A stretch of 36,472 nt of DNA from a virus, in the IMG/VR virus record IMGVR_UViG_3300009146_000027, positions 1 to 36,472 of that record; one strand, written 5' to 3'. The number at the start of each line of letters is the position of its first letter. Positions within the stretch are counted from its first letter, which is position 1. This document shows positions 7,973-36,472 of the stretch, piece after piece. Position numbers and translations under genes: made by a program. Below the pieces are notes generated by a model that saw only the letters and a program-made list of their open reading frames with translations, had not been told where the DNA came from and did no database searches.

Positions 7973-8695
7973 TTAATCAGTGTTTTTTACCTTTTCCTGC
8001 TTTGATTGTTTGTCACCTTGAATATCTCCTATTGTTATTAGTACTGCTATATCAACTATATCTCTATGTACAGTACTAGGCAATTGACAATCCTGTGAAC
8101 CTGTTAATACTGTTGTCTTATCTGGTAACCTATATGTTCCTCCGGGAAAATCTTGTGCATTATGCATGAACAAAGACTTCTTATAATATCCTAAACAAAG
8201 CTTATCAACAACAAATGTTTCATCAGTATATACATGAATATCATTACCTACAAATAACAGATTGCAATCTTCCCATTCAAAACTTGAGTTATCAAAAGGA
8301 CTAGCTTCATCCCTATTACCATGTGCTTTACTTAATCCTCTTAATTTCCTTTTACATTCACCTTTACTTGCTAGAACATTGGACTTAACATAATAACGAT
8401 ATTCTATTGGTATCTGCGCTTTATATATTAAATCATTTATCTTAATAACTGGTAAACAAGTACCTTGTTCATCTATCTGTTCTATTACCAAGCTTCTTAA
8501 ATCATCCTTAATCCTTTGATTAACTTCAAATCCTAATATCTGATTTTGTCTTGGAAAAGCTACAGCTTTTACCAACATATCTTCTGCTTCGTTTAACTTC
8601 CAATCTATTTCAGGAACAAGTAAATTTCTATCCTTTTGACTATCAATCTTATTAAGCTTTTGCTTAAAGTCATAATGCATATCCCGAATAGTCAT
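7973..8695 (-). CDS. Conserved head-to-tail/ring-type structural protein
   Basis: 240 residues. The start TIRDMHYDFKQKLNKIDS followed by IDWKLNEAEDMLVKA is a pattern I recognise from proteins encoded shortly after the capsid gene in crAss-like and other Bacteroidota phages, where they are annotated as structural or connector components. The protein is mixed alpha/beta with an N-terminal helical region (1-85). Its C-terminus is charged and Gln/Lys-rich. Position two genes after the capsid gene supports a head-tail connector or ring role; this is inference. Confidence 0.65.
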   Translation of the reverse strand: MTIRDMHYDFKQKLNKIDSQKDRNLLVPEIDWKLNEAEDMLVKAVAFPRQNQILGFEVNQRIKDDLRSLVIEQIDEQGTCLPVIKINDLIYKAQIPIEYRYYVKSNVLASKGECKRKLRGLSKAHGNRDEASPFDNSSFEWEDCNLLFVGNDIHVYTDETFVVDKLCLGYYKKSLFMHNAQDFPGGTYRLPDKTTVLTGSQDCQLPSTVHRDIVDIAVLITIGDIQGDKQSKQEKVKNTD

Positions 8696-24948: not shown

Positions 24949-25453
24949 TTGTTATCAAATTTATTTCTTTAACAGGTTGTTTATCTGTAATTAAATCAGG
25001 TCTTATTCTATTAGTTCTAAATAACATAGCTGCTGTTGTACTTAGTACTGCGAAGTATTCACCATAACTAATATAATATGGATTTACAATATAGATATTG
25101 GTAGTTTCAGTTTTAATAAGTACCTTCATTTCTATAAATCCTTTGATTGCTTTACAGTAATTTCCATTGTTCTTTATTTCAGGTTTACATTCCCATAATA
25201 CATTATACATTTTCAGTTCTCTTTGTATTATATTAACTAGATTCCATTGAGCAGGTGTACACATTGACCCTAATTCTTTATTGATTATAATAAAGTCTCT
25301 ATCTAATCTTATATTCTTTAAGTTTGCTACAGCACCTCTTTTAAATGATGTACCATTTATATCATTTATAATAACATTACCTTCTATAGTTGGAGTATTA
25401 AATAACATATCCATAATGACTACATATGACGGAGATATTTTTCTCTGAATCAT
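24938..25453 (-). CDS. Winged-helix protein, RepL-like C-terminus; possible regulator or initiator
   Basis: 171 residues. The C-terminal part NYCKAIKGFIEMKVLIKTE (98-116) then NIYIVNPYYISYGEY has the order found in RepL-type and related wHTH proteins: a helix '(Y/F)-x-x-AIK-x-(L/F)-x-x-x-x-(I/L)-I-x-x-T', then 'Y-x-(I/V)-NP-x-(Y)-x-x-x-G'. It is the first gene of the minus arm and starts at the edge of the divergent control region with its two TTGGCTAA palindromes, so autoregulation is plausible. A replication-initiation role is the alternative. Confidence 0.5.
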   Translation of the reverse strand: MIQRKISPSYVVIMDMLFNTPTIEGNVIINDINGTSFKRGAVANLKNIRLDRDFIIINKELGSMCTPAQWNLVNIIQRELKMYNVLWECKPEIKNNGNYCKAIKGFIEMKVLIKTETTNIYIVNPYYISYGEYFAVLSTTAAMLFRTNRIRPDLITDKQPVKEINLITNEN

Positions 25454-25472
25454 TCATAAAGATAAACTATAT

Positions 25473-25489
25473 TTGGCTAATCTAGCCAT
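25473..25489. promoter_or_regulatory. Operator-like palindrome 1
   Basis: TTGGCTAATCTAGCCAT: half-sites TGGCTA / TAGCCA around ATC. It is 20 bp from the start of the wHTH gene, the position of an autoregulatory operator. Confidence 0.5.
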
Positions 25490-25503
25490 TTTTTTTAGAG
25501 AAA

Positions 25504-25520
25504 TTGGCTAATTTAGCCAA
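25504..25520. promoter_or_regulatory. Operator-like palindrome 2
   Basis: TTGGCTAATTTAGCCAA: perfect 8-bp inverted repeat around a central T. Its centre (25512) is 31 bp, three helical turns, from that of palindrome 1, so two dimers would bind the same DNA face. Confidence 0.55.
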
Positions 25521-25765
25521 GAAAATGGTATATAACTAATTAGCAATCAGCAAGATGTAAAAGTAGTCTCTAATAGAGATAAGACCCTATACATTAATCA
25601 GAAAAGTAATAACATGTAAAATTGTCAAGAGCCTGTTAAAATGTCAACATTGCAAGATAGGTAAGAATAATGTATAAACATAATAGTCATACAAAATTTT
25701 TGTAAAAAATTTTTAAAGATAAATGGAAACGTAATCCTCCCTACAACTAACCCTCACTAATTTTC

Positions 25766-25783
25766 GGGGAGATAGGTATCCCC
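25766..25783 (+). promoter_or_regulatory. Leader hairpin before the first plus-strand gene
   Basis: GGGGA (25766-25770) pairs with TCCCC (25779-25783), 8-nt loop, ending 17 nt before ATG 25801. No T-run follows. Confidence 0.45.
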
Positions 25784-25800
25784 CCACTAAAATCACCTTT

Positions 25801-26082
25801 ATGAATATTTCCGAGATTAAGAAAGCTTTAGGCGTAGAGACATTACCTTTCGAAGAAGGTCTTGCTAATCAGGATGGTACTCCATCATTGTATGGTACTA
25901 TTTGGGATAACACTACACGTAGGCAAGTTAGTATCCTCAAGACTGATTTGACCAGTGTAATCGCTAATCCAACACGTTCTGATTTGTACATGCATCATAG
26001 CCAGCCAGTATCCACTGGTTCAGGCAAGATGTTTGACAACTATCGTATTGGTATCATGGCTAATGTCATTGGTACGTTGTAG
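25801..26082 (+). CDS. Early protein, 93 residues, likely highly expressed
   Basis: First gene of the plus arm: MNISEIKKALGVETLPFEEG, later TRSDLYMHHSQPVSTGSG. No family recognised. It uses more C/G-ending and CGT/GGT codons than the genes after it, has a structured leader and a strong terminator right after its stop, so it should form a separate, abundant mRNA. Possibly an early host-takeover or DNA-binding protein, but nothing in the sequence shows that. Confidence 0.7.
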   Translation: MNISEIKKALGVETLPFEEGLANQDGTPSLYGTIWDNTTRRQVSILKTDLTSVIANPTRSDLYMHHSQPVSTGSGKMFDNYRIGIMANVIGTL

Positions 26083-26084
26083 GT

Positions 26085-26110
26085 AAGGGGGCGTAAGCCC
26101 CTTTATTTTT
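26085..26110 (+). terminator. Strong terminator with GTAA tetraloop
   Basis: AAGGGGGC (26085-26092) pairs with GCCCCTTT (26097-26104; one G-U) around the loop GTAA, a GNRA-type tetraloop, followed by ATTTTT. It starts 3 nt after the stop. The next 247 bp hold no gene; they contain small palindromes (TGTTATAACA 26235-26244, GTTAC-TAA-GTAAC 26262-26274) and a weak promoter candidate (TTTG at 26209, TATCTTG at 26230). Confidence 0.8.
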
Positions 26111-26357
26111 CATACACAATGTTAGAACTAGCAGAAATCAAGAGATATTCATTAAAGTTAATAAGGTAGGGTGTTAGTACAGGATATATACTATGAGAGA
26201 GAGTACAGTTTGCATAATTGCGTCAGACATATCTTGTTATAACATAAACTTATAGCTACTTGTTACTAAGTAACCTTCCTAATTTCATCAACCTTTTCAC
26301 TATCACCAATTTTCTCATAATCAGGGTTTATAATAATAGCCCAAAATACAATCCAAA

Positions 26358-26705
26358 ATGAAAAACTTTGCAATCCTTTTAAGTATCATTGCTTTCTTAG
26401 TTATTATGATGAGCAGTTGTTCAGAATCTCAACCTACAATTAAAGCAGCAGGTAGTGTTGACAGTATCATTATTGCACGTAATGAAATACTCAATGAGAA
26501 AGTACTTGCAAAAGTACATTCTTGGCCTATTCGTGTTGATGAAGAATTTATTTCCGAATTGAAATGGGTTCATCCAGCATTTGTTGCTGGTGACATAGTT
26601 ACATTAGGTGGAGTTCATTCTACTTATATGATTGATTCAATAATTGTCCTTGATACAGAAGGACATTATACTGGTGATCTAAACATACTAGATGATGACA
26701 ATTAA
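26358..26705 (+). CDS. Predicted lipoprotein
   Basis: 115 residues. Signal peptide MKNFAILLSIIAFLVIMMSSC: short basic start, hydrophobic helix and lipobox-like MSSC with Cys21 to be lipidated, followed by SES. The mature part is a ~90-residue beta-rich domain. Phage-encoded lipoproteins on early operons often block superinfection by binding receptors or injected-DNA channels; this function is inferred only. An inverted repeat overlaps its stop codon. Confidence 0.7.
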   Translation: MKNFAILLSIIAFLVIMMSSCSESQPTIKAAGSVDSIIIARNEILNEKVLAKVHSWPIRVDEEFISELKWVHPAFVAGDIVTLGGVHSTYMIDSIIVLDTEGHYTGDLNILDDDN

Positions 26706-26717
26706 GTCATCATCTAG
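26688..26717 (+). repeat. 12-bp inverted repeat across the lipoprotein stop codon
   Basis: CTAGATGATGAC (26688-26699) and GTCATCATCTAG (26706-26717) are perfect complements; the 6-nt loop contains the TAA stop. T-run after it is weak (TTTAAAT). It may protect the mRNA 3' end or form the first domain of the following RNA. Confidence 0.55.
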
Positions 26718-26908
26718 TTTAAATAACAAACGTGGTGTTGATGCAAAAAGACCACATTAAACAATTCATTAAACTTGCATCTAGTGTACTGGTTAAGCAT
26801 TCCAGATAATACACGATTTAACATGCTTAGATAATAGTAAAAGGCTATATTGGGGACGATATAGTGACAAGCAATAAGGCCGCTTTGAAGTGCCTATTCA
26901 TTTTCTTT
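26718..26908 (+). ncRNA. Candidate structured RNA with two H-type pseudoknots
   Basis: No gene fits. Stems seen: GTGGT (26732-26736)/ACCAC (26751-26755), whose loop carries GATGCAA (26740-26746) complementary to TTGCATC (26775-26781), a pseudoknot. GTGT (26784-26787)/ACAC (26811-26814) and CTGG (26789-26792)/CCAG (26802-26805), whose loop carries TAAGCAT (26794-26800) complementary to ATGCTTA (26823-26829), a second pseudoknot. Then CTATAT (26845-26850)/ATATAG (26859-26864), and a final hairpin at about 26873-26898 followed by CATTTTCTTTT, a terminator. No known family recognised; could be a regulatory RNA, anti-terminator or processed spacer. Confidence 0.5.
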
Positions 26909-26930
26909 TAAACCCTTAAAATAAAATAAC

Positions 26931-27284
26931 GTGGAAAAATCACAAATGTTAGCGATACTGGAATTTGGTAATATATATGAATTTAAATTCTTAACAAGTG
27001 AAGAGTGGTGGAGTATAGTAACTAAATCAGCAACTGTAATAACTACAAGGTTATTACCTTATGGTATAGTAAATACTGCAATCATTGATAAAACAGAATA
27101 TAATCAAGTATCATATTACAAAGGCCATCCTTCTGAATCAGAGCAATGTGTATATTGTTCTAATCGTCATTATACAATAGAAGATACAGAATCTTTTATT
27201 AAGATAATGACACAAGGTATAGCACCAGTATGGCCTGAACCAGAAGAAATGCAACACCTACTTTGCGAAGATACTGATTATTAA
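26931..27284 (+). CDS. Hypothetical early protein, GTG start
   Basis: 117 residues from GTG at 26931; an internal ATG at 26946 would shorten it by five. Mixed alpha/beta: MLAILEFGNIYEFKF, SEEWWSIV, then CVYCSNRHYTIEDTESF. One CxxC. No family recognised. A-rich leader AAAATAAAATAAC. Confidence 0.6.
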   Translation: MEKSQMLAILEFGNIYEFKFLTSEEWWSIVTKSATVITTRLLPYGIVNTAIIDKTEYNQVSYYKGHPSESEQCVYCSNRHYTIEDTESFIKIMTQGIAPVWPEPEEMQHLLCEDTDY

Positions 27285-27287
27285 GAT

Positions 27288-27381
27288 ATTGGTCAATATG
27301 CTCATTTGTACGTGTACTGATGGAAGGCTATAACAATCTATCCAGAGGAGGAAATACACCTAGAGTATTGACCAATTTTTT
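27288..27381 (+). ncRNA. Candidate structured RNA closed by an 11-bp helix
   Basis: ATTGGTCAATA (27288-27298) pairs perfectly with TATTGACCAAT (27366-27376), followed by five T; CTC/GAG (27301-27303 with 27363-27365) continues the helix. Inside, GTGTA (27312-27316)/TACAC (27355-27359) and TGGA (27321-27324)/TCCA (27341-27344) leave the purine tract GAGGAGGAAA unpaired. It could be a terminator with an elaborated loop or a small RNA. Confidence 0.55.
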
Positions 27382-27401
27382 ACCTTTTAAAACTATTCAC
27401 A

Positions 27402-27860
27402 ATGAAAATTAAATTATGTTGGTTCAACCAACATTGGAATGTTTATCTTTATTCAGATGATAGTCTCTGGATAGGGAATAGAACAGAGAAAATTATTAGG
27501 GATGAAACACCGGGTCATGAAGGTGAGTATAGATTGCGTGAATATAAACATGCTGAAATACCTATATTTACGTTTGGATTCTTTGCAGATGATGCAAAAC
27601 AGAGGCCGGGGCATGGTGGTGAATGGTCAAGTAATTCACCAGTCATTAATAGAGTGTTTGGTACAACTCTTAGAGAAATTGCTGTAGACCAGATGAGTGT
27701 AGCTGTTCCTATTGAATGGCTAAAAGAATTGTTGGGTGATAATGTTGAATGGGGAGCATCAATGTGGTCACCAAATTATCTTGAAATTAAATCTGCAAAA
27801 GATTATCCCAATCCAGAATATGACCAATGGATTGAAATAATTCCGAAGCTTGTCAGCTAA
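27402..27860 (+). CDS. Hypothetical early protein
   Basis: 152 residues, beta-rich and Trp-rich: MKIKLCWFNQHWNVYLYSDD at the start, then TFGFFADD, AVPIEWLKELLG. Start directly behind TATTCACA (27394-27401). No family recognised. Structured elements on both sides isolate it from its neighbours. Confidence 0.65.
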   Translation: MKIKLCWFNQHWNVYLYSDDSLWIGNRTEKIIRDETPGHEGEYRLREYKHAEIPIFTFGFFADDAKQRPGHGGEWSSNSPVINRVFGTTLREIAVDQMSVAVPIEWLKELLGDNVEWGASMWSPNYLEIKSAKDYPNPEYDQWIEIIPKLVS

Positions 27861-27875
27861 GGAACAACACCCAAA

Positions 27876-27994
27876 GTAATCAGAGATACATACAAGGTAT
27901 ACATTGTAGCCTACGTGCATAAGTTCATAGTTATTACGCATACCTTCACCAAGAGGAAGATGTAATGATGTTCACTTATTGTATCTCTGATTAC
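27876..27994 (+). ncRNA. Candidate structured RNA closed by a 15-bp helix
   Basis: GTAATCAGAGATACA (27876-27890) pairs perfectly with TGTATCTCTGATTAC (27980-27994). Within it AAGGTAT (27894-27900) pairs with ATACCTT (27940-27946), and smaller hairpins such as GTAG-C-CTAC lie inside. A purine tract AAGAGGAAGA (27951-27960) is unpaired. There is no T-run directly after the helix, so it is not a simple terminator. Confidence 0.5.
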
Positions 27995-28041
27995 AGAGGG
28001 TAAATTAAAATGTCATTTATTCACTTTTAAATATTCACAAA

Positions 28042-28533
28042 TTGAAACAGTTTAATCAGGTTATTACAGTTGAAGTGTCAGTAGATTCTATTGCACAAAA
28101 GTTATTGGAATCAATGAATGTTGATTTCAAACATGCAGAATTAGTAACAGAAGCAGTTATTGGTTCAGCATTGCATTCCGGGAAATTAAGTTACATTTAC
28201 AATGCCTTAAATGGCTTTACTAATGACATTAACTTCAAAGTTGGTGACAAAGTAAGAACTACAAAGAAAGCATATATGTACAAAACTCCAAGTTCCAAAG
28301 AAAGGAGCAGTTCTGAATATGCTACAATGGATAATTGCGTAGTATTGGAGATAGATGAATACCGGGATGCTAAATTGTTGCTGGAATATGACCATTACAA
28401 TCGTGATGAAACCATTGTTCGTAAACAGGAATGGGTAAGTCATACTGAATGTTCACAAATTGAACCATCAATTGATTTGCGTAAATCAAATGGTGCAGAG
28501 ATAATGGGGCCACAGTACACCATGGAAGATTAA
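28042..28533 (+). CDS. Hypothetical early protein, TTG start
   Basis: 163 residues. The first codon is TTG at 28042, two nt after TATTCACA (28032-28039), the motif that precedes other early starts, so this start is favoured. Segments: VITVEVSVDSIAQKLLES, NFKVGDKVRTTKKAYMYK (about 69-86, SH3-like start), ATMDNCVVLEI. Likely a helical N-terminus with an SH3-like beta-barrel after residue 65. No family recognised. Confidence 0.65.
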   Translation: MKQFNQVITVEVSVDSIAQKLLESMNVDFKHAELVTEAVIGSALHSGKLSYIYNALNGFTNDINFKVGDKVRTTKKAYMYKTPSSKERSSSEYATMDNCVVLEIDEYRDAKLLLEYDHYNRDETIVRKQEWVSHTECSQIEPSIDLRKSNGAEIMGPQYTMED

Positions 28534-28541
28534 TCAAACAC

Positions 28542-28584
28542 TTATCGCATCCTATTATATTCAAAACATAATAGGATGCGGTAA
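28542..28584 (+). repeat. 17-bp hairpin between early genes
   Basis: CGCATCCTATTAT (28546-28558) pairs with ATAATAGGATGCG (28568-28580); TTAT/GTAA extends it outward to about 17 bp with one G-U pair. Loop ATTCAAAAC. Followed by TTTCTATTT; could terminate or process transcripts. Confidence 0.6.
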
Positions 28585-28617
28585 TTTCTATTTACAAATC
28601 AAAACAAAAAAAGAAGT

Positions 28618-28911
28618 ATGAAACCTTCACAGTTAAAGTTGAAATTGTTTTTCATTGGTATGCTGATTGTTGCTATGTTTGCAAACAGCAAATGTTTCAG
28701 TCAGAATGCCAAATTGGACAGCAAAGGTAATTATGTGCAGATCAAAGCACCAATTGATACAACTGGTACACCAACTGGAAAGACATTCACCACAACAAAG
28801 GGTGATGTGTATCCTGTCCTGATTTCTAAATCGGGTAGCCTGTTTGTAGTAAGAACATCAGCGAAAGGTACACGCTATAAGATGTATCTTAAAACAGAAC
28901 CAAAGATATAG
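28618..28911 (+). CDS. Exported small protein
   Basis: 97 residues. Signal peptide about 1-29 (KLKLFFIGMLIVAMFANSKCFSQ; probable cleavage after CFS or SQN). The mature part DVYPVLISKSGSLFVVRTSAKGTRYKMYL has the 'YPV-x-(I/V)S-(K)-x-G-x-x-(F/Y)-(V/I)-x-RTS-x-K' pattern of small Bacteroidota proteins annotated as hypothetical. Codon use resembles highly expressed genes. It would act in the periplasm or envelope of the host; role unknown. Confidence 0.7.
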   Translation: MKPSQLKLKLFFIGMLIVAMFANSKCFSQNAKLDSKGNYVQIKAPIDTTGTPTGKTFTTTKGDVYPVLISKSGSLFVVRTSAKGTRYKMYLKTEPKI

Positions 28912-28938
28912 GTTTTGAGTTTTTGGGTTTTCGATGAT

Positions 28939-28973
28939 AGAGTAGTAACACAGAAATGTGTTACTCTCTTTTG
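28939..28973 (+). terminator. Terminator with GAAA tetraloop
   Basis: AGAG-T-AGTAACACA (28939-28952) pairs with TGTGTTACTCTCT (28957-28969), one bulged T, loop GAAA; then TTTTG. Ends the transcript of the exported protein. Confidence 0.75.
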
Positions 28974-29015
28974 TTATTTCAAATATGAAATCAATTCACC
29001 AATAATATATTCACA

Positions 29016-29243
29016 ATGAGCATGCCTATTAATGTTATAATGCGTATTAATAATATCGCATATAAACAGTCTATTCCTACTGAATTAAAAGTAGGAGATT
29101 TAGTTTTTGATACTAAAGATAATAGCTATGGATATGTAGATATGATACACGATGAAAAACGTGTAGCTGTAAGGGATGGCCATGTTACTGAATTAGGAGT
29201 ATCTATTGAAAGACTTAGATTATTAACACCAATAAATAGTTAG
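29016..29243 (+). CDS. Small hypothetical protein, SH3/KOW-like
   Basis: 75 residues, beta-rich: ELKVGDLVFDTKDNSYGYVDMI (24-45) then KRVAVRDGHV. The 'VGDLV-x-D' turn and following strands suggest an SH3-like barrel. Starts immediately after TATTCACA (29008-29015). Confidence 0.65.
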   Translation: MSMPINVIMRINNIAYKQSIPTELKVGDLVFDTKDNSYGYVDMIHDEKRVAVRDGHVTELGVSIERLRLLTPINS

Positions 29244-29245
29244 CA

Positions 29246-29647
29246 ATGAAAACATTAAAAGTTTACTGTAATTACCATAACGAAAGTGGTACATGTACAG
29301 AAGAAGATTATAATGATGCAAAGAATGGTACTAATCCATCAAGAATGGTAAGAGTACAATTTAAAGACTTCTCACATGCTGTTCCTTTTCACACAATAGC
29401 AATCATTGATGATACGTCTATTGATTTATTAAAAAGACTATTAACATTAAGAAAGAAAGGTCAGTTATTTACTCATGCAAATATGGTAGATGATGGTGAT
29501 GGTAATTTTGATGATATGTCTACATTAAATGAAGAATTATTAGACATATTAGATAAAGCAGAAAAAGTTATCAAAAACTATAAAGAACCAGAACCATCAT
29601 TTAATGATATTGATAATACAGGTATTGGTATAAACAGAAATAGTTAA
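29246..29647 (+). CDS. Hypothetical early protein
   Basis: 133 residues, 2 nt after the previous stop. KTLKVYCNYHNESGTCTEEDY at the start (two Cys, one His), a central helix IDLLKRLLTLRKKG, and an acidic Gly/Asp-rich C-terminus. No family recognised. Confidence 0.6.
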   Translation: MKTLKVYCNYHNESGTCTEEDYNDAKNGTNPSRMVRVQFKDFSHAVPFHTIAIIDDTSIDLLKRLLTLRKKGQLFTHANMVDDGDGNFDDMSTLNEELLDILDKAEKVIKNYKEPEPSFNDIDNTGIGINRNS

Positions 29648-29650
29648 CAA

Positions 29651-29686
29651 TGACCTGCAAACCTCAATGTTGAGTTAGGCAGGTCA
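29651..29686 (+). repeat. Cloverleaf-like inverted repeat between early genes
   Basis: TGACCTGC (29651-29658) pairs with GCAGGTCA (29679-29686); a second stem CTCAA/TTGAG lies inside (29663-29667 with 29670-29674). Ends 19 nt before the next start. Confidence 0.5.
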
Positions 29687-29705
29687 CTTCTAAATCCAAT
29701 TAAAA

Positions 29706-30002
29706 ATGGCAACAAAGAAGATTAAGACAAGTAGATATGATCAAAAGTATCAAAAGCTATCAAATGCTTTTGCAGCATTATTAGGAGTTAACGGAGAAGA
29801 GTTTGTAAATGAAATAATGGTAACAAGTAAGTTATCATATAACTCATATCAAAAGATATGTGAGTTAACATTATATCACAGTTATGAAATTCTTGCAGAA
29901 CACTTCGGAGTAGTTCAATCTTATTACTTTAACACAGTAATAGAAGAAAGAGCAAGGAGACACAAACAAACAACAGAAACTCTTTGGATAACAAGCCTAT
30001 GA
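29706..30002 (+). CDS. Helix-turn-helix-like small protein
   Basis: 98 residues, helical. SYQKICELTLYHSYEILAEHFGVVQSYYFNTVIEERAR (about 49-86) has the layout of a DnaA-C/TrpR-like HTH: a helix, 'SYEILAEHFG' and then 'V-x-x-x-x-x-x-(T)-V'. The N-terminus is basic. Possibly an early transcription or replication regulator. Its TGA overlaps the next ATG (ATGA). Confidence 0.5.
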   Translation: MATKKIKTSRYDQKYQKLSNAFAALLGVNGEEFVNEIMVTSKLSYNSYQKICELTLYHSYEILAEHFGVVQSYYFNTVIEERARRHKQTTETLWITSL

Positions 30003-30106
30003 AAATCTTTTTAATTATTGTAATAGTTATCATAACTTTACAATCTTGTGCATCTACAGGTTATGGGTGTCAAGGTAAAAGCAGATTAATAACCAGAGTC
30101 CAATAA
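29999..30106 (+). CDS. Tiny lipoprotein, 35 residues
   Basis: Found by translation: MKIFLIIVIVIITLQSCAST, then YGCQGKSRLITRVQ. A classical short lipoprotein signal (basic start, hydrophobic helix, LQSC lipobox, Cys17) leaving a mature peptide of 19 residues. Very small lipoproteins of this form ('SC-A-(S/T)-G-Y-x-C-x-G-(K/R)') occur in Bacteroidota genomes and phages. ATGA coupling to the previous gene supports translation. Function unknown; envelope or superinfection role possible. Confidence 0.65.
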   Translation: MKIFLIIVIVIITLQSCASTGYGCQGKSRLITRVQ

Positions 30107-30129
30107 TTATTCACCAGAAAACTATTCAC

Positions 30130-30813
30130 ATGAAAACAAAAAAGATTACAAATCTTAGTGAAGAGATGCAACATGATACTATTGCAATGTATCATGATAA
30201 CATCAGAAAATTGCAAGAAATGAAAGATGCAGTAATGCCAAAGTATGAAGAGAAACTGGCATTCTTAAAGCAGGTCAGAGAGGACTTCATTGAAATTGAT
30301 GAAGAAGTTAAAATACTTGATAGCAAAATCGAGAAACTGTATAAGTGGATTGATGCATTTAAAGGTTTCAAAGGCTCTGAATTTGAAACTGAATATGAAG
30401 TACGTGGTGTTGTTAAAGAAAAAACATTTGTTGTAAGAGTTAAGTGGTTAACTGAAATTAATGCCATAATAAAGAAACAAAATAGATTTCTTACATGGGG
30501 TGAAATTTGGAAGTTAATGAGTGAAGATACTAGAATTGTTGATTTGGCGAATCAAACCAAAATGGGTTTTAAATTCTCTAAAGTAACAATTCTAAGAGGA
30601 CTTGATACTCATGCAAACAATCTTAGCAATGCAAAAGGTAGAATGGTATCTATCTATCAGGATAAATATGGATTACCTGAATGGGTAAATCACAATGGTA
30701 AATTGATAAGCCCTGAACATGCTAAAGAGTTTATGGGAATTGAAACAAGTCCTGATGTTATTGTATTACCTATTAAAAGAAAATACGAAAGAAGAAACCA
30801 TGCTCATAACTAG
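30130..30813 (+). CDS. Coiled-coil plus wHTH-like protein
   Basis: 227 residues. Residues ~10-75 form a long charged coiled coil (HDNIRKLQEMKDAVMPKYEE, IDEEVKILDSKIEKLYKWID). After about 105 it appears globular, with helices and KFSKVTILRGLDTHANNL, PEWVNHNGKLISPEHAKEF. Possibly a DNA-binding protein with a dimerisation helix. Start overlaps TATTCACA (30123-30130). Confidence 0.6.
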   Translation: MKTKKITNLSEEMQHDTIAMYHDNIRKLQEMKDAVMPKYEEKLAFLKQVREDFIEIDEEVKILDSKIEKLYKWIDAFKGFKGSEFETEYEVRGVVKEKTFVVRVKWLTEINAIIKKQNRFLTWGEIWKLMSEDTRIVDLANQTKMGFKFSKVTILRGLDTHANNLSNAKGRMVSIYQDKYGLPEWVNHNGKLISPEHAKEFMGIETSPDVIVLPIKRKYERRNHAHN

Positions 30814-31051
30814 AAGAAGCGAATTAACAGGCAAGTTAAATACAAGAGACTTGCCTGTTACTTTTAGACAATTGATAATGTTTTATTGTAATAAACATCA
30901 TCTGGAGATAATATTCCCATGCTTATCACCAGAAGATAAAGAGTTTCTTAGAACAGGAATAACAAAAGAAGAATGGGAACTAATCCGAAAAAAAAATCCA
31001 ATCTATGAAGATGGCAATCACAGGTCACAGACCTCACAAATTGGGGAATGA
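30800..31051 (+). CDS. Conserved small phage protein (TGKxNTRDLPVT type)
   Basis: 83 residues from ATG at 30800, overlapping the end of the preceding gene by 14 nt; an earlier in-frame ATG at 30719 would overlap it far more and is rejected. LTGKLNTRDLPVTFRQLIMF (9-28), then PCLSPEDKEFLRTGITKEEW: the pattern '(S)-x-TGK-x-NT-x-x-(L/I)-x-VT ... P-x-L-(S)-x-x-(E/D)-(R/K)-EF-x-x-(T)GIT-x-EEW' is very widespread in phages. Function unknown. Confidence 0.75.
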   Translation: MLITRRSELTGKLNTRDLPVTFRQLIMFYCNKHHLEIIFPCLSPEDKEFLRTGITKEEWELIRKKNPIYEDGNHRSQTSQIGE

Positions 31052-31493
31052 CTATCAATTAACAAGTGATCTGATTAAAGAAATCAAGAAATTGATACAG
31101 ATGCAGATTGATATGTATCAACCTGATATAATGATAACAGGTATGGCACTTGGTATTGATACAGTATTCGCAATCTTAGCTGTTGAAAATCAAATACCAT
31201 TTATAGCTGCTGTTCCATTTAAAGGTCAAGATAGTATGTGGCCTACAGCATCAAGAAAAGCGTATCTTAATTTAATTAACCAAGCAAAAGAGGTTGTAGT
31301 TATATCTGAAGGTAATTTTACAGCAGCAAAGATGCAATTAAGAAATCAATGGATGGTTGATAATTGTGATTTGTTATTAGCTGTATGGGATGGAACATCA
31401 GGTGGAACTGCTAATTGTATTAAATATGCAATAAACCAAGGTAAACAAATAATTCATATTAACCCTAAAACTTTAAAAGCAGAATTTATATGA
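31005..31493 (+). CDS. SLOG-superfamily (YpsA/DprA-like) nucleotide-binding protein
   Basis: 162 residues. TGHRPHKLG (6-14), TGMALGID (45-52), VPFKGQ (70-75), then NCDLLLAVWDGTSGGTANCI: the order of the SLOG fold as in YpsA (DUF1273) and the DprA Rossmann domain. SLOG proteins bind nucleotides or nucleotide-derived signals. In a phage, possible roles are sensing or hydrolysing defence signals or acting in recombination. Start is at 31005 or 31011. It overlaps the previous gene by 47 nt and the next by 4 nt. Confidence 0.75.
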   Translation: MKMAITGHRPHKLGNDYQLTSDLIKEIKKLIQMQIDMYQPDIMITGMALGIDTVFAILAVENQIPFIAAVPFKGQDSMWPTASRKAYLNLINQAKEVVVISEGNFTAAKMQLRNQWMVDNCDLLLAVWDGTSGGTANCIKYAINQGKQIIHINPKTLKAEFI

Positions 31494-31738
31494 AATATGT
31501 TGTAATGATAATAATAGCAATCATGGGAGTGGTTGCTATTTTTCTTTCCAGTTCAAAAGTTCACATGTGTCCATATGAATTATGTCCCTATATAGGAATG
31601 ACAGAATTTAAAGATGATATTTGTGGTTGTCCTGTAGGTTCAGACTGTAATTTATTAGACAAAATTCATTTTGACTATCCACAATGGTCATATGAAGAGT
31701 GTGAAAGGGAATTATTCAGTCCATTAAGTCTTAAATAA
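31490..31738 (+). CDS. Membrane-anchored Cys-rich protein
   Basis: 82 residues. N-terminal hydrophobic helix (VVMIIIAIMGVVAIFL, 4-19), then a six-Cys domain: HMCPYELCPYIG, DICGCPVGSDC, and one Cys near the C-terminus. Disulfide-rich and probably periplasmic. ATGA overlap with the SLOG gene. Confidence 0.65.
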   Translation: MKYVVMIIIAIMGVVAIFLSSSKVHMCPYELCPYIGMTEFKDDICGCPVGSDCNLLDKIHFDYPQWSYEECERELFSPLSLK

Positions 31739-31793
31739 AAGAAATTTAGATAATGGTATAATTTTTTATTACATTTATTAAAACATTTAAATC

Positions 31794-31991
31794 ATGGAAG
31801 TTTTAGTACGGGTAGACCTTGATACAGAACTCGCCTTGAAATGGTGGGGAAGGTTACCAGATGTAATGAAAAATCATTACTCTATTTCATATTGCTGCAA
31901 GTATGTAGCAAATATTACTCCAAGCGAAATACACAACATTTGGCAGAAAGAAGCTGTCAAATACAATCCCACACCTATATATGTTGATTAA
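31794..31991 (+). CDS. Small hypothetical protein
   Basis: 65 residues: VLVRVDLDTELALKWWGRLPDVMKN, then YCCKYVANITPSEIHNIW. Helical, no family recognised. The spacer before it (31739-31793) has no structure. Confidence 0.55.
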   Translation: MEVLVRVDLDTELALKWWGRLPDVMKNHYSISYCCKYVANITPSEIHNIWQKEAVKYNPTPIYVD

Positions 31992-32013
31992 CCATTTAAA
32001 AACAAAACAAAAC

Positions 32014-32310
32014 ATGAAGAAACTCATGATGCTGCTGTTAGTATGCGTATCACTAACAGCATTTGGTCAAGTTAAGGCCGCTGCTATTGAAGATGATCTG
32101 CCCATAGTAGAACAATCTACATCAACACAGGTTGATAACATTAAAGAAATGAATTACCAGGGAGACTACGTGATCGTGGCTGATGATGATTGGTATGAAC
32201 CAATTGTTGTTACATATGAAGATGTATCTTTAAATAAACGAAGAAAAGAAAGATACAAATTCATTGCTGCAATAAAGTATATGAGCGTAGCATATAAGAA
32301 TACAGTATAA
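32014..32310 (+). CDS. Exported protein
   Basis: 98 residues from ATG at 32014, after AAAACAAAAC; an upstream ATG at 31981 is rejected. Signal peptide MKKLMMLLLVCVSLTAFGQVKA with probable cleavage near residue 18-22. Mature part acidic and Tyr-rich (GDYVIVADDDWYEPIVVTYED), then a basic end. Followed by a strong terminator. Confidence 0.7.
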   Translation: MKKLMMLLLVCVSLTAFGQVKAAAIEDDLPIVEQSTSTQVDNIKEMNYQGDYVIVADDDWYEPIVVTYEDVSLNKRRKERYKFIAAIKYMSVAYKNTV

Positions 32311-32334
32311 ATAGAGGTTTTAATTAAGGAAAGA

Positions 32335-32369
32335 AAATGCCTGATAGAAATATCAGGCATTTCTTTTTT
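32335..32369 (+). terminator. Strong terminator with GAAA tetraloop
   Basis: 12-bp perfect stem AAATGCCTGATA (32335-32346) / TATCAGGCATTT (32351-32362), loop GAAA, then CTTTTTT. Confidence 0.85.
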
Positions 32370-32409
32370 AATAAATCAAGATGATAAAGTACCCACCTTT
32401 ACAATCGTT

Positions 32410-32494
32410 AAAGACTGCTTTAACAGGTATCAAAGAATAAAGGATATTTAGAGATAACCCCAAGGTGTAACCTTGAGCAGTCTTTTTTTTTCAT
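32410..32494 (+). ncRNA. Candidate structured RNA closed by a 10-bp helix
   Basis: AAAGACTGCT (32410-32419) pairs with AGCAGTCTTT (32476-32485), followed by T-run to 32491. Inside, CAAGGT (32461-32466)/ACCTTG (32470-32475) forms a coaxial hairpin next to the 3' strand, and GGTATC/GATA-A-CC (32427-32432 with 32452-32458) a bulged stem. Lies between a terminator and the next gene, so it could be a separate small RNA with its own promoter. A further small hairpin TGTCTA...TAGACA is at 32518-32540. Confidence 0.5.
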
Positions 32495-32594
32495 TTCCTA
32501 AATCAATAAGGTTATTCTGTCTATTCTAGCTAGGTAGACATTTTAATATTCACAATTTAAACAATTACAAAAAAACAATCACAAAAAACAGAAC

Positions 32595-33284
32595 ATGGAA
32601 ACAAACAAAGCAGTAGCAGCAGCTACATTGGTTAGCGAAACAGTCTTAGACAATGGTGCAGTAGTGTCAATCAGTAAAGGTGCAATTACCGTAGATAAGG
32701 TAGAAGCATCACAGTATCAAAAGAACAAAACACTGACTGCAACTCTCCGGCAAATCTTTAAAAATGTTTTCACTTATCCTGAAGCACAGGTAAGTAACAA
32801 CATGCAGGACAACCTGTTTAAAGCAGAAGATTTCGGATTTGATATGAAATCAATTGAACGTGATGAAAACAGGGTTGCTTTCATTGATGTGCCTATGAAT
32901 AGCACAGTAGAAAGCATCGCTGCACTCCTTACAAAAAATGCTACGGCGTGTCTGTACAAAGTGTTGTCTAATCAGCCAATACTTACAGATAACCAGAAAC
33001 GTGCAATTGAATCTGTTGACATTCCGTTGACATTGGATGATGTGGCAAATTCACAGGTAGTTCGCTATCCTGAAAATGCCAAGGATAAAGAAGGTAACAG
33101 TATTGCAAATGATCTCATTCTTGATAAGAATGGTAAAGTGCAATATCGTGCTGTATTCTTTAAGACAACTCCAACAGCAGACATTGACAACAGGAATGCA
33201 GACCCATCTGATTTCTATGCTTCACCGGAGATAAGTGCAGAAGTGTTAACTGCACTTAATGCACCATCACAACTTATTCCTTAA
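32595..33284 (+). CDS. Abundant-type early protein, unknown
   Basis: 229 residues. METNKAVAAATLVSETVLDNG, a helical middle, KDKEGNSIANDLILDKNGK, and an Ala/Pro/Asn-rich end. Acidic overall. Codon use is richer in C/G-ending codons than the genes around it, like the capsid and 25801-26082 genes. Leader AACAATCACAAAAAACAGAAC. No family recognised; possible ssDNA-binding or recombination-accessory role is only positional guesswork. Confidence 0.65.
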   Translation: METNKAVAAATLVSETVLDNGAVVSISKGAITVDKVEASQYQKNKTLTATLRQIFKNVFTYPEAQVSNNMQDNLFKAEDFGFDMKSIERDENRVAFIDVPMNSTVESIAALLTKNATACLYKVLSNQPILTDNQKRAIESVDIPLTLDDVANSQVVRYPENAKDKEGNSIANDLILDKNGKVQYRAVFFKTTPTADIDNRNADPSDFYASPEISAEVLTALNAPSQLIP

Positions 33285-33292
33285 ACAAACAC

Positions 33293-33324
33293 AATAGTAG
33301 TAGTCAGTAATGGCTACTACTATT
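33293..33324 (+). repeat. 11-bp hairpin after the abundant early gene
   Basis: AATAGTAGTAG (33293-33303) / CTACTACTATT (33314-33324), 10-nt loop, 9 nt after the stop. Followed by AAAACACAAAAGGAGGT-ATG, which opens an 11-codon frame (33339-33374) before the terminator at 33411. Confidence 0.55.
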
Positions 33325-33410
33325 AAAACACAAAAGGAGGTATGTTTTCTGAAACTCATTGGGTAAGCCCGTTATAGCTATGATGAATGAATAAAATTAG
33401 TTGAACAAAG

Positions 33411-33449
33411 AATACAGAGTGGATTTGGTTTTCCGGCTCTGTATTTTTT
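33411..33449 (+). terminator. Terminator
   Basis: AATACAGAG (33411-33419) / CTCTGTATT (33437-33445), then TTTT to 33449. Confidence 0.75.
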
Positions 33450-33518
33450 GTATTAATTAATATTCATTACTTTTATCCAAGGATGCGATAACAAATTCAC
33501 CAATTTCAATCTATTCAC

Positions 33519-33749
33519 ATGAAAATCAAATTCATTGACCCGCTTCAAATAGTTATCAATAGATATGCTCAAATATGGAGTGAAGATTGCTTAACATTAG
33601 CAATAGATATAACTAATGGTATTGAACCAGAAGGAGTAGCTATTAAGTTGTTCAATCAAAAGTTAAGAACATTAGAGTATATTGTAAAGAATGGATGCTG
33701 CCCAAAGCATACCATAATGATACTAACAGATATACAAAATCAAAATTAA
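33519..33749 (+). CDS. Small hypothetical protein
   Basis: 76 residues: MKIKFIDPLQIVINRYAQIW, LAIDITNGIEPEGVAIKLFN, GCCPKHTIMIL. Helical, no family recognised. ATG overlaps the last base of TATTCACA (33512-33519). Confidence 0.6.
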   Translation: MKIKFIDPLQIVINRYAQIWSEDCLTLAIDITNGIEPEGVAIKLFNQKLRTLEYIVKNGCCPKHTIMILTDIQNQN

Positions 33750-33763
33750 CTAAACGGTTTCTA

Positions 33764-33784
33764 AGAGTGGTTCGATTCCACTCT
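33764..33784 (+). other. Orphan tRNA-like T-arm
   Basis: AGAGTGG-TTCGATT-CCACTCT: a 7-bp stem with a perfect T-loop; the inner GGTTCGATTCC matches the tRNA B-box consensus exactly. GGTTAC follows, but no GTAACC partner, D-arm or sound anticodon arm is found upstream, so it is not a complete tRNA. Confidence 0.55.
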
Positions 33785-33823
33785 GGTTACATCTGATGTG
33801 AATAGTCAGAAAAGGTGAATAGT

Positions 33824-33866
33824 GTAGGGAGAGGACATATTTATGTGTACTCCCTACTTTTTTTTA
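33824..33866 (+). terminator. Terminator before the helicase gene
   Basis: GTAGGGAG (33824-33831) / CTCCCTAC (33850-33857) with ACAT/ATGT inside the loop, followed by eight T. Flanking AAGGTG/CACCTT may add an outer helix. Confidence 0.8.
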
Positions 33867-33911
33867 TTTTTCCCACCTTAATTTTTTTTTACTACTACAA
33901 ACTTTAATGTC

Positions 33912-35357
33912 ATGTTATCTTCCCATCAATTAGAGAAGGCTAATGAAGTGTTGGATTTAATCCGACAAAATCAAAAGATAATTGTTATTGAAGGAAGTGC
34001 AGGTACAGGTAAAACTTACATGGTAAATGAGTTAATTACCATGATTAGAAATGAGTTTTATAAGTATGGTCTTGTTTATGTTACTGCACCAACACATAAA
34101 GCAGTAGATGTAATCACCAGTAAGATTGAGTATAAATCATACATTGAATTTAAAACAATCCATAGTGGATTGCAATTACAACGTAGATTTATGAATGGTG
34201 AAGCTGTTTATGCGAAGAAGAGATTTAATCCAAGGTATCCACCATTTCCTAATGGTAAGTTATTAATCGTAGATGAAGCAAGTATGGTTGGTAACAAAGC
34301 TGTAGAAGGTAATGGTGCAAGACTACCGGGAATGTTAGACTTAATCGAAGAATTCAAAGATCAAATGACAATCATTTATCTAGGTGACAGGAAACAACTC
34401 AATCCTGTTAATGAGAATGATAGTCCAGTATTTACAAAGGGTTATCCTATTGTTAATTTAACTGAAATCAAAAGACAGGGAGAAGGTAATCCTATTATTC
34501 ATTTATCTCATAATTTAAAGCTTATATGGACTAAGCAAGAAGATGTGATGATGATGGATAAACAAATAACAAAGAAAGTATTTTCAGAAGAACAAGGAAA
34601 GGAATTAGAACTAACTATCATTAAGAAGGTAATGGTAGGTTATACTTTCACAGCAGATAGACAGAAGATAATTAGTAGATTAGCTGCAACAAATGGTACA
34701 ACAGAGTATAAATATTTAGCATATACAAATGAAGAAGTAGATGCTATGAATACTGCTGTTAGAAAGGAAATTTATGGTAATCCAAAGAAGGTAGAAGTTG
34801 GTGAACGTATTATATTTAATGCTCCATATGAAGAGTATATGAATAATCAGGAAATCTTAGTTGAATCATGTGATGTAATAGTAAGGAGATTAGAAATACC
34901 AACTTCTGAATCTGTATTGCAAGATATAGATGGTAAATTAGAAATTGTTAATCGTGTAAAAATGGCTAATAATACAAGGCCACAAATAGATTCAGGAGGT
35001 AAGACAATTCCAACATATGATATATTTCAATGTAAATGTTATTTAATCAATGATAATGTTGTAGTAGTACATGAAGATAGTGAAAGAGAGTATCATGATA
35101 TAATAATGGATATACAAAGAAAGATAGATAGAGAGGGGTTGGATTACAAAGCAAAGTATTATTTTAAAGAACAGGTTGCGGATATAACATATGCACATGC
35201 TGTAACAGTTCACAAGAGCCAAGGTAGCACATATGAAAAAGTCATAATCAATTTTCCTTCTATTATGATAAACAGAAATAACGAAGAAAGAAGAAGAATG
35301 ACATATACTGCAATTACAAGGGCATCTGATTTAGTAATCCTATTCAATGTAAAGTAA
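33912..35357 (+). CDS. SF1B DNA helicase, Dda/RecD2-like
   Basis: 481 residues. Walker A GSAGTGKT (28-35); motif Ia APTHK (59-63); Walker B VDEAS (120-124); motif III GDRKQLNP (158-165); motif V HKSQGS (434-439); motif VI YTAITRAS (465-472). Length and motif order are close to T4 Dda. The region between motifs III and V holds a beta-rich insertion with repeated charged segments (about 330-420). It probably unwinds DNA 5'-3' at replication or recombination forks and is followed by polymerase-type genes, forming a replication operon. Confidence 0.88.
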   Translation: MLSSHQLEKANEVLDLIRQNQKIIVIEGSAGTGKTYMVNELITMIRNEFYKYGLVYVTAPTHKAVDVITSKIEYKSYIEFKTIHSGLQLQRRFMNGEAVYAKKRFNPRYPPFPNGKLLIVDEASMVGNKAVEGNGARLPGMLDLIEEFKDQMTIIYLGDRKQLNPVNENDSPVFTKGYPIVNLTEIKRQGEGNPIIHLSHNLKLIWTKQEDVMMMDKQITKKVFSEEQGKELELTIIKKVMVGYTFTADRQKIISRLAATNGTTEYKYLAYTNEEVDAMNTAVRKEIYGNPKKVEVGERIIFNAPYEEYMNNQEILVESCDVIVRRLEIPTSESVLQDIDGKLEIVNRVKMANNTRPQIDSGGKTIPTYDIFQCKCYLINDNVVVVHEDSEREYHDIIMDIQRKIDREGLDYKAKYYFKEQVADITYAHAVTVHKSQGSTYEKVIINFPSIMINRNNEERRRMTYTAITRASDLVILFNVK

Positions 35358-35473
35358 TGGAAACAATAAAATCAATCCTTCTAATAATATTCACAGTACT
35401 GGTAAGTCTAACAGTATTAATGTTATTGGTAACTTTAATTTATAACTTATGGAAAAACTTTAAGGAGAAATAA
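35357..35473 (+). CDS. Small single-span membrane protein, 38 residues
   Basis: Found by translation: METIKSILLIIFTVLVSLTV, then MLLVTLIYNLWKNFKEK. Its ATG overlaps the helicase stop by one base (TAATG) and its stop is one base before the next ATG, so it fits the operon perfectly. One long hydrophobic helix (5-29) and a basic C-terminus inside. Could be a holin-like or membrane-anchoring peptide; no evidence favours either. Confidence 0.6.
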   Translation: METIKSILLIIFTVLVSLTVLMLLVTLIYNLWKNFKEK

Positions 35474-35474
35474 C

Positions 35475-35663
35475 ATGATAGAAATCATATTAAAAAATGG
35501 ACACAAAGTTCTCATTAGTGATTTAATTGTAGCTAATCTAATTAGTAAAGCTATAATAGATAGAGCATTAAGTCCTATTATACTAGCTAAGGATTATGAC
35601 CCAAATGAATTAGTATTATTTTTACGAATCGAAGATATTTGTCTTATTACACGTAAATATTAG
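35475..35663 (+). CDS. Small hypothetical protein
   Basis: 62 residues: MIEIILKNGHKVLISDLIVAN then IEDICLITRKY. Mixed alpha/beta. It has a rare Shine-Dalgarno-like AAGGAG 9 nt before the start. No family recognised. Confidence 0.6.
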   Translation: MIEIILKNGHKVLISDLIVANLISKAIIDRALSPIILAKDYDPNELVLFLRIEDICLITRKY

Positions 35664-35665
35664 TT

Positions 35666-36472
35666 ATGAGCAAGATATGGATACATGATACTGAAAACTA
35701 TCGCAATCTATTTCTCTATAGAGCAAGAAATATAGAAACAAGAGAAGAAAGGATATTTCAGATTAGTCCATTAGCTGACCAAAGAAATGAATTAGTGATA
35801 CATCTACGAGATGAAGTGGAGATGTTGATAGGATTTAATAGTCTATCTTATGACTGTCCACTAATTCATTATTTTATTACCAAGCTATTTGTAAAGAAAG
35901 ATATGCATGGTAAACAGTTGACAAACATTTTATGTGAGAAGAGCAAGGAACTAATTGAAAAGTCTAATAACAATCCTTGGATAAACAGGATAAAGAATCC
36001 ATTCAGAAAGCAAATGGATTTGTTTACAATACATCATTTTGATAATAAACAGAAGAGAACTAGTTTAAAGGTTCTAATGTTTGTATTCAGAATGAGAAAT
36101 GTAGAAGAACTACCATTTGAACCGGGAACAGTATTAACAATAGAAGGAATAAATAAGGTAATCAGTTATTGTGGAAATGACATTGATGGAACTGAATTAT
36201 TTTATGATAAATCCAAGGATGCGATTGCTTTTAGAGAAAGAATGTCACAAATTTATGGCATTGATTTTACAAATGCCAATGATGTTAAGATAGGTGAATT
36301 AATACTTATCAGAACATTAGCAGATAGATGGAAAGTGCCTTATGATGATATAATGAGAATGAGGACAAGAAGAGAGAGTATCAAAATCAATGATATTCTA
36401 TTTCCTTATATCTCATTTCAATCAGAGATACTAGATGAGTTTCTAGTATGGTGGAGAACTAAGACTATAGTA
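35666..36472 (+). CDS. DNA polymerase-associated 3'-5' exonuclease domain (partial)
   Basis: 269 codons seen, open at the window edge. DTENYRNLFL (8-17) gives the DxE exonuclease motif I, GFNSLSYDCPLIH (52-64) motif II, then QMDLFTIHHFDNKQKRTSLKVL, ELPFEPGTV and YCGNDIDGTELFYD (motif III with the catalytic Asp). This order, especially '(I/M)DL-(F/Y)-x-IHHFDNK-x-(K/R)-x-TSLK', is that of phage DNA polymerase exonuclease domains that I recognise. A polymerase domain may follow beyond 36472. Three bases separate it from the preceding gene. Confidence 0.78.
   Translation, partial: MSKIWIHDTENYRNLFLYRARNIETREERIFQISPLADQRNELVIHLRDEVEMLIGFNSLSYDCPLIHYFITKLFVKKDMHGKQLTNILCEKSKELIEKSNNNPWINRIKNPFRKQMDLFTIHHFDNKQKRTSLKVLMFVFRMRNVEELPFEPGTVLTIEGINKVISYCGNDIDGTELFYDKSKDAIAFRERMSQIYGIDFTNANDVKIGELILIRTLADRWKVPYDDIMRMRTRRESIKINDILFPYISFQSEILDEFLVWWRTKTIV

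Follow-up and report, generated by a model that had tools for sequence, protein, structure and literature searches.

A T-arm-like hairpin is the 5' domain of a conserved RNA-like element, a candidate antisense RNA of phage early genes

The T-arm-like hairpin at 33764-33784 (+ strand) is the 5' domain of an RNA-like element of about 110 nt that lies between a gene for a 76-aa protein and a Dda-like helicase gene in the window, i.e., the whole 36,472-base virus record analyzed here. Judging from the sequence, there is about an even chance that this element is a phage antisense small RNA, similar in its action to the C4 RNA of phages P1 and P7, that keeps several early genes from being translated, the 76-aa gene (start at 33519) among them. 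Such an RNA would originate at the 3' end of the 76-aa gene or immediately after it; it would start with the T-arm-like hairpin, carry two seeds in its middle part, one in a hairpin loop and one in the adjoining linker, and end in an intrinsic terminator. The seeds would pair with a two-part motif, AUUCACC-n-UAUUCACA, directly before the start codons of several early genes, and, by masking the start region, this pairing would repress the targets jointly, which in the case of the 76-aa gene would amount to feedback on the neighbor. The T-arm may stabilize the RNA, or RNase P or another enzyme that processes tRNAs may recognize it as the mark of the 5' end. From the predicted hairpins and terminator, the conservation, the motif, and the ordered complementarity, all of which are seen in the sequence, we infer that the element would be transcribed and processed, would pair in the cell and repress, and that its T-arm would have a role in this. 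If this reading is correct, several early genes would be governed by a single short RNA through the motif that they share at their start codons, in a phage group with Flavobacterium as the host of its known relatives, and tRNA-like structure and antisense control would be joined in one phage RNA, as in C4 of P1/P7. The motif and the seeds yield direct and cheap predictions.

The hairpin, AGAGUGG-UUCGAUU-CCACUCU, has a 7-bp stem (33764-33770/33778-33784) and the loop UUCGAUU (33771-33777). The hairpin is real rather than a chance product: its core, GGTTCGANNCC, occurs once in the 36,472 bases, with a mean of 0.00 and a maximum of 0 in 100 dinucleotide shuffles. An earlier note made from the sequence alone had placed a T-arm correctly at 33757-33792, and its remark that this arm has no acceptor partner holds within the element, but four weak or bulged outer pairs lengthen the stem. 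The terminator that it placed at 33824 is also borne out, with a stem at 33824-33831/33850-33857 followed by 8 T (33824-33865 in total, + strand). Absent from that note were a second hairpin, two copies of GUGAAUA, and their complementarity to gene leaders. Hairpin 2 (33792-33810, +), UCUGAU-GUGAAUA-GUCAGA, is predicted by the fold to present GUGAAUA as the entire 7-nt loop (33798-33804, antisense seed 1) on a 6-bp stem, and antisense seed 2, GGUGAAUA (33814-33821, +), contains the second GUGAAUA at 33815-33821. From 5' to 3', the element thus consists of the T-arm, hairpin 2, seed 2, and the terminator. The region 33745-33880 folds at -39.2 kcal/mol, compared with -27.74 kcal/mol (standard deviation, 3.67) for its shuffled versions (z = -3.12; 0/200 equally stable). 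A possible outer helix between AAGGUG (33812-33817) and CACCUU (33874-33879), followed by a second T run (33812-33890 overall, +), would compete with seed 2; it is uncertain because the fold of a longer window favors a different partner. The stretch AGAAAAGGUGA at 33810-33819 resembles a Shine-Dalgarno sequence, so that seed 2 could in principle also meet the 3' end of 16S rRNA. Elsewhere in the window, positions 32398-32496, before a 229-aa gene, may form another structured RNA with a terminator (z = -2.81; 2/200 shuffles as stable).

The replication genes of the window resemble those of Fipvunavirus phages of Flavobacterium, its helicase being 37.4% identical to those of FpV4 and Fpv1, and the 29 phage records matched by blastn of 32500-36472 are all Flavobacterium phages. 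The 76-aa gene (33519-33749, +), directly upstream of the element, has no PHROGs or Pfam match, and the best hit of its protein among the phages searched is poor (E value, 0.8). Downstream of the element, the helicase gene (33912-35357, +; phrog_325, E value of 4.3e-86), whose own leader lacks the motif, served as the anchor for finding the locus in relatives. Beyond the window, the element is present in two IMG/VR contigs: L002, which is the window's own phage (99.98% over 4650 nt), and L003, the only diverged relative with the element (helicase 89% identical). The element is known from two lineages only. The exact T-arm, the T-arm with the following block, and hairpin 2 alone, searched against viral contigs, each returned L002 and L003 only, as did single-query searches with the helicase or the 76-aa protein. 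In Fpv1, the space between gp75 and the helicase holds just a simple hairpin and a T run, and no RNA comparable to the element was found in this phage.

Comparison of the window with L003 showed that 90 of the 93 positions of 33729-33821 are identical, with surroundings at 62 to 85%. This conservation maximum corresponds to the RNA-like part and includes the last six codons and the stop codon of the 76-aa gene (21/21). Hairpin 2 and seed 2 are identical at 29/29 positions and the T-arm region (33757-33792) at 33/36, compared with 27/37 for the terminator, 38/55 for the stretch after it, and 76/89 where the helicase gene begins. Of the initial 210 nt of the 76-aa gene, 164 are identical; in this gene, 21 codons changed silently and 14 changed the residue, with 26 of the 46 differences at third positions. 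The leader of the gene is overall identical at only 25/40 positions, although it retains both motifs. The terminator stem is likewise retained in L003 despite changed letters. Since the stems of the T-arm and hairpin 2 are invariant, they provide no covariation evidence, and the single target gene visible on the L003 contig has an unchanged motif facing unchanged seeds, i.e., no seed/target co-change.

The complement of GUGAAUA, UAUUCAC (TATTCAC in DNA), ranks above all other 7-mers in enrichment within the 25 nt preceding the gene starts of the window, where it occurs in 6 of 54 leaders versus 10 times in all sense sequence (uncorrected P = 4.7e-7); it also ranks first when automatic ORFs are used (5/52 leaders). 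TATTCAC lies 0 to 3 nt before the start of five genes (27402, 28042, 29016, 30130, and 33519) and 14 nt before 20862 (minus strand), with further copies 41 nt before 32595 and 80 nt before 35475. In 28042, 29016, 30130, and 33519 it is preceded by ATTCAC, at distances of 14, 15, 15, and 18 nt, respectively, and the complement of the element features the same two-motif layout with a spacing of 17 nt. The distal copy continues as CACC in three of these four genes (CACT in 28042), and the proximal copy reads CACA in all of them, as in the complement of the element, so that both the order and the end letters of the motifs fit collinear pairing. Gene 27402 has no distal motif; here, ACCUUUU is complementary to AAAAGGU of the element, and the leader is 83% complementary over 23 nt. 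GTGAATA itself occurs twice in the element, once as a complete loop, and its four remaining sense copies in the window are isolated from one another. A search for the dual leader motif yielded 82 stretches, and in none of the 81 loci scanned on the motif strand (L075-L155) was the antisense pair found. Two of these loci, L128 and L155, belong to the window's own phage and stop short of the element (L155 was also the one locus, 100% identical, found with the protein of gene 30130), and the repeated motif of L105 falls inside a repetitive protein gene.

The best predicted target, at -25.9 kcal/mol, is the leader of gene 30130 (227 aa), TATTCACC-n-CTATTCAC before ATG (30090-30129, +). It is followed by the leader of the 76-aa gene, ATTCACC-n-CTATTCAC directly before ATG (33493-33518, +; -25.3 kcal/mol), and by that of gene 27402 (152 aa), ACCTTTT-AAAA-CTATTCACA before ATG (27379-27401, +; -24.6 kcal/mol). 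Weaker predicted targets are the leaders of gene 28042 (163 aa; TTG start assumed), TATTCACT-n-TATTCACA (28018-28041, +; -19.2 kcal/mol), and gene 29016 (75 aa), ATTCACC-n-TATTCACA (28994-29015, +; -17.2 kcal/mol). When 33793-33826 was compared with the + strand by RNAduplex, the leaders of 30130, 33519, and 27402 took ranks 2, 3, and 4, each duplex reaching the ATG; rank 1 (-26.1 kcal/mol, at 8341) falls on the noncoding strand of the left arm, whose best sense (coding) site scored -24.8 kcal/mol (at 7802). Cofolding of the element with five leaders gave a gain of 7.2 to 14.4 kcal/mol.

To put a number on this complementarity, we took the 36 nt holding both seeds (33791-33826), a segment picked after the motif had been seen, and found 9 of 54 leaders below the 2nd percentile of 276 coding windows; the shifted grid segment at +33801 scores 4. 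None of 300 native segments of similar GC content (maximum, 6) and none of 300 shuffles (maximum, 5) reached nine, and the T-arm, the terminator, and the upstream segment count 1, 1, and 0 leaders, respectively. The segment ranks first on both scores, of 1820 sense segments and of 1822 after addition by hand. Four of the nine leaders (22747, 12260, 25801, and 6649) lack the motif and may be noise. In the AT-richer Fpv1, the same count goes up to 10/79 leaders, for AT-rich segments and with -15.6 as the best energy reached there, and the leader count alone is therefore not decisive. Taken with its conservation in L003, the element has what is expected of a trans-acting small RNA, a conserved seed complementary to several leaders. 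Being complementary to several gene start regions, this part may thus switch those genes off by pairing.

Among known systems, the element is closest in its predicted action to the C4 RNA of P1/P7, which, as far as described in the available text of PMC12197685, is an antisense RNA that binds, probably via its loops, to complementary sequences around a ribosome-binding site and thereby blocks translation. The likeness, read from the sequence, would be that of a phage antisense RNA with two stretches complementary to a translation start region. However, C4 acts on the ant mRNA, whereas the predicted targets of the element are several unrelated leaders, and the T-arm domain of the element has no counterpart in C4 as described in the portions of text consulted. 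The C4 family of Rfam did not match at gathering score and is not among the seven subthreshold hits in 33290-33920. C4 is a substrate of RNase P (PMC11143913, available in part), and by analogy this enzyme could generate the 5' end of the element at the T-arm. The sar RNA of P22 and the OOP RNA of lambda are other phage antisense RNAs acting on phage mRNAs, sar by interfering with translation initiation, but each has one named mRNA target in the description given by the accessible part of PMC12197685, in contrast to the several leaders predicted here. Small RNAs derived from 3' untranslated regions that exert feedback on their own mRNA form a further class. The element is like them in following a stop codon and ending in a terminator, with the leader of its neighbor as the second-best predicted target. 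No Bacteroidetes-type promoter was found near the element. Among the titles and abstract openings surveyed, in a literature without most subscription journals, none deals with this RNA or with a comparable natural RNase P guide.

The T-arm had led the earlier note to three suggestions: the 3' end of a host tRNA used as an attachment site, a tRNA relic, or a tRNA-mimicking RNA element before the terminator. For a tRNA gene with a full cloverleaf (acceptor, D, anticodon, and T), neither ARAGORN nor Rfam gave a match; ARAGORN called 0 tRNA or tmRNA genes in the whole window, and none of the 4227 Rfam families matched the window at gathering score, RF00023 (tmRNA) included. Relaxed Rfam thresholds revealed no tRNA or tmRNA in 33290-33920 or 25400-36472, and the seven hits at E ≤ 10 in 33290-33920 are all below gathering score and of unrelated families. 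Matches of the element to phages by blastn were short, many of them within tRNA genes. The attachment site finds no support in our searches: the T-arm 21-mer had 0 exact matches among the genomes of 84,980 species (one genome each), and the 19-mer from the T-loop to the "acceptor" had 1 exact match in the same set, on a Desulfobulbus metagenome-assembled contig on which ARAGORN found no tRNA. A phage integrase (PF00589) was found in none of the six frames of the window, a fragment of a genome, while 14/14 control genomes were positive. Of the two observations that were to speak against the T-arm, i.e., no host tRNA with the sequence and no conservation in relatives, the former was made by exact search, whereas the element proved nearly invariant in L003. 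A tRNA relic is conceivable in an altered form only, as the RNA found in relatives upstream of the same helicase is a tmRNA. The tRNA-mimicking element, to which no role had been assigned, is the closest of the three to the evidence. Two further candidates were rejected. A whole or divergent tmRNA in the window has no model match, and the stretch that its body would occupy is the 76-aa gene, with mostly third-position changes. A permuted tRNA with UAGUCAG as the 5' acceptor strand would find its partner in CUGGUUA of the window, but in L003 this pairing contains a C-A mismatch, as judged by eye.

An Infernal-type search of relatives, as proposed with the T-arm, did reveal tmRNAs, although none in the window. 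Forty loci encode relatives of the helicase, and 36 were scanned for tmRNA (eight loci, near-copies among them, were not given to Rfam). At gathering score, Rfam matched a tmRNA in 15 of the 36 (7/20 and 8/16 in two batches), always upstream of the helicase, on its strand, and 25 nt to 2 kb away; ARAGORN called a tmRNA in 7 of 35 helicase loci, with variable tag peptides. Matches in Fpv1 (L005, 1848-2262) and FpV4 (L004, 658-1072) scored 58.2 bits (gathering score, 47), in stretches for which the records list only protein genes; that of Fpv1 sits in 2.3 kb without an annotated gene. These unannotated matches in two Flavobacterium phages are useful in themselves, and the phrase "phage-encoded tmRNA" had no match in the literature searched, most subscription journals being outside its scope. 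The other 13 are metagenomic relatives with a tmRNA upstream of the Dda-like helicase (L015, L018, L022, L023, L024, L026, L032, L034, L036, L037, L041, L044, and L047). In the whole contig of L003 (L049), no tmRNA matched at gathering score. Several of these tmRNAs share the T-loop UUCGAUU with the element, which is also placed upstream of the same helicase gene but lacks the acceptor pairing, D-domain, and tag frame of a tmRNA; nothing in the window matches the tmRNA model. Because distant relatives carry an unannotated tmRNA at this place, the T-arm may descend from one, an origin that, as read from sequence, is plausible but unproven.

The strongest rival to an antisense RNA, rather unlikely in our view, is that the two-part motif is a DNA element, such as a phage promoter or operator before early genes, of which the element carries one opposite-strand copy incidentally. 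Genes with the motif do tend to begin new units, with a predicted terminator shortly before 29016 and a terminator-like hairpin before 33519, and no host-type promoter was found in that arm; the copies farther upstream of 32595 and 35475 would also suit a DNA element, as would the fact that homology between L003 and the window starts at 33494, beside the distal motif. In addition, the leaders resemble repeated cassettes: 30119-30141 and 33508-33530 are 87% alike, with the similarity running into the coding part, and the leaders may share the motif because the cassettes were copied. Yet a TATTCAC only 0 to 3 nt from the start codon in five genes is too close for a -10 element, unless it lies at the very 5' end, the spacing between the motifs varies from 14 to 18 nt, and the ACCUUUU match of 27402 differs from the motif. 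Moreover, the opposite strand at the element has no gene following it, and the copy in the element is displayed as a hairpin loop on a 6-bp stem. It seems improbable, too, that the element is the plain structured 3' end of the 76-aa mRNA, with two hairpins, a terminator, and a coincidental complementarity to leaders. Its place directly after the gene, the intrinsic terminator, and the lack of a detected promoter would agree with this, but a plain 3' end would not require hairpin 2 and seed 2 to stay invariant next to a terminator that changed, nor would it be expected to rank first in leader complementarity.

The conservation pattern also fits poorly with the T-arm being a relic of the 3' end of a tmRNA once located before the helicase, the remainder having little or a new function, since a relic would not stay 90/93 identical beside a gene at 164/210. 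The tmRNAs upstream of the helicase in relatives and their identical T-loop favor such a relic, whereas the missing tmRNA features and the position of the Fpv1 tmRNA, on the opposite side of gp75, oppose it; we regard it as quite improbable as an account of function, and as an account of origin it is compatible with the antisense RNA. Lastly, the T-arm might be a natural guide acting in trans, in which UAACCAG of a leader pairs with CUGGUUA beside the T-stem as the missing acceptor strand and RNase P cuts the hybrid. A T-stem and loop flanked by target-pairing sequence is the design of artificial external guide sequences, according to the available part of PMC11143913; the main antisense part of the element differs in lying 8 to 30 nt from the T-stem, and RNase P cutting would here be only putative. 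The exact complement of 33781-33789, UAACCAGAG, has a single other occurrence in the window, at -40 of the best predicted target, 30130 (noted at 30090-30098 as TAACCAGAG), and UAUCCAGAG, with 1 mismatch, lies at -63 of 27402. But, by our estimate, chance alone would give about one 9-nt match of 54 leaders to an RNA of 110 nt, this contact cannot be collinear with seed pairing, and the other leaders show little enrichment (3/54 below the 2nd percentile of 162 coding windows). L003, in turn, reads CUAGUUA, and although it contains UAACUAG 3 times, the single target known in it is not preceded by any of these copies. We hold such a guide to be very unlikely, and equally its extension, in which host RNase P would be recruited by the phage to cleave early phage mRNAs at the same time as the seeds block the start codons.

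Some observations were made in relatives besides those bearing on the antisense RNA. Another phage of the group, G007 (L070-L074), has a leader word of its own, AAACTTA/ACTTACA, close before several ATGs; inspection by eye found no antisense RNA to it. Across five other phages, it is the one exception to enriched leader words being AT-rich. L029 holds, at 2227-2350, a T-arm whose stem has 8 bp, together with acceptor strands that match each other (TAGGGAC/GTCCCTA) at a distance of about 100 nt, as judged by eye; neither ARAGORN nor Rfam called this structure, which is perhaps an odd tRNA. L019 and L022 are two helicase loci near the two ends of one 105-kb contig, each with a tmRNA-like 3' end, and reflect either a duplication or an assembly artifact. 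In one further relative, a group I intron match (L016, 149-374; 82.8 bits) lies upstream of the helicase.
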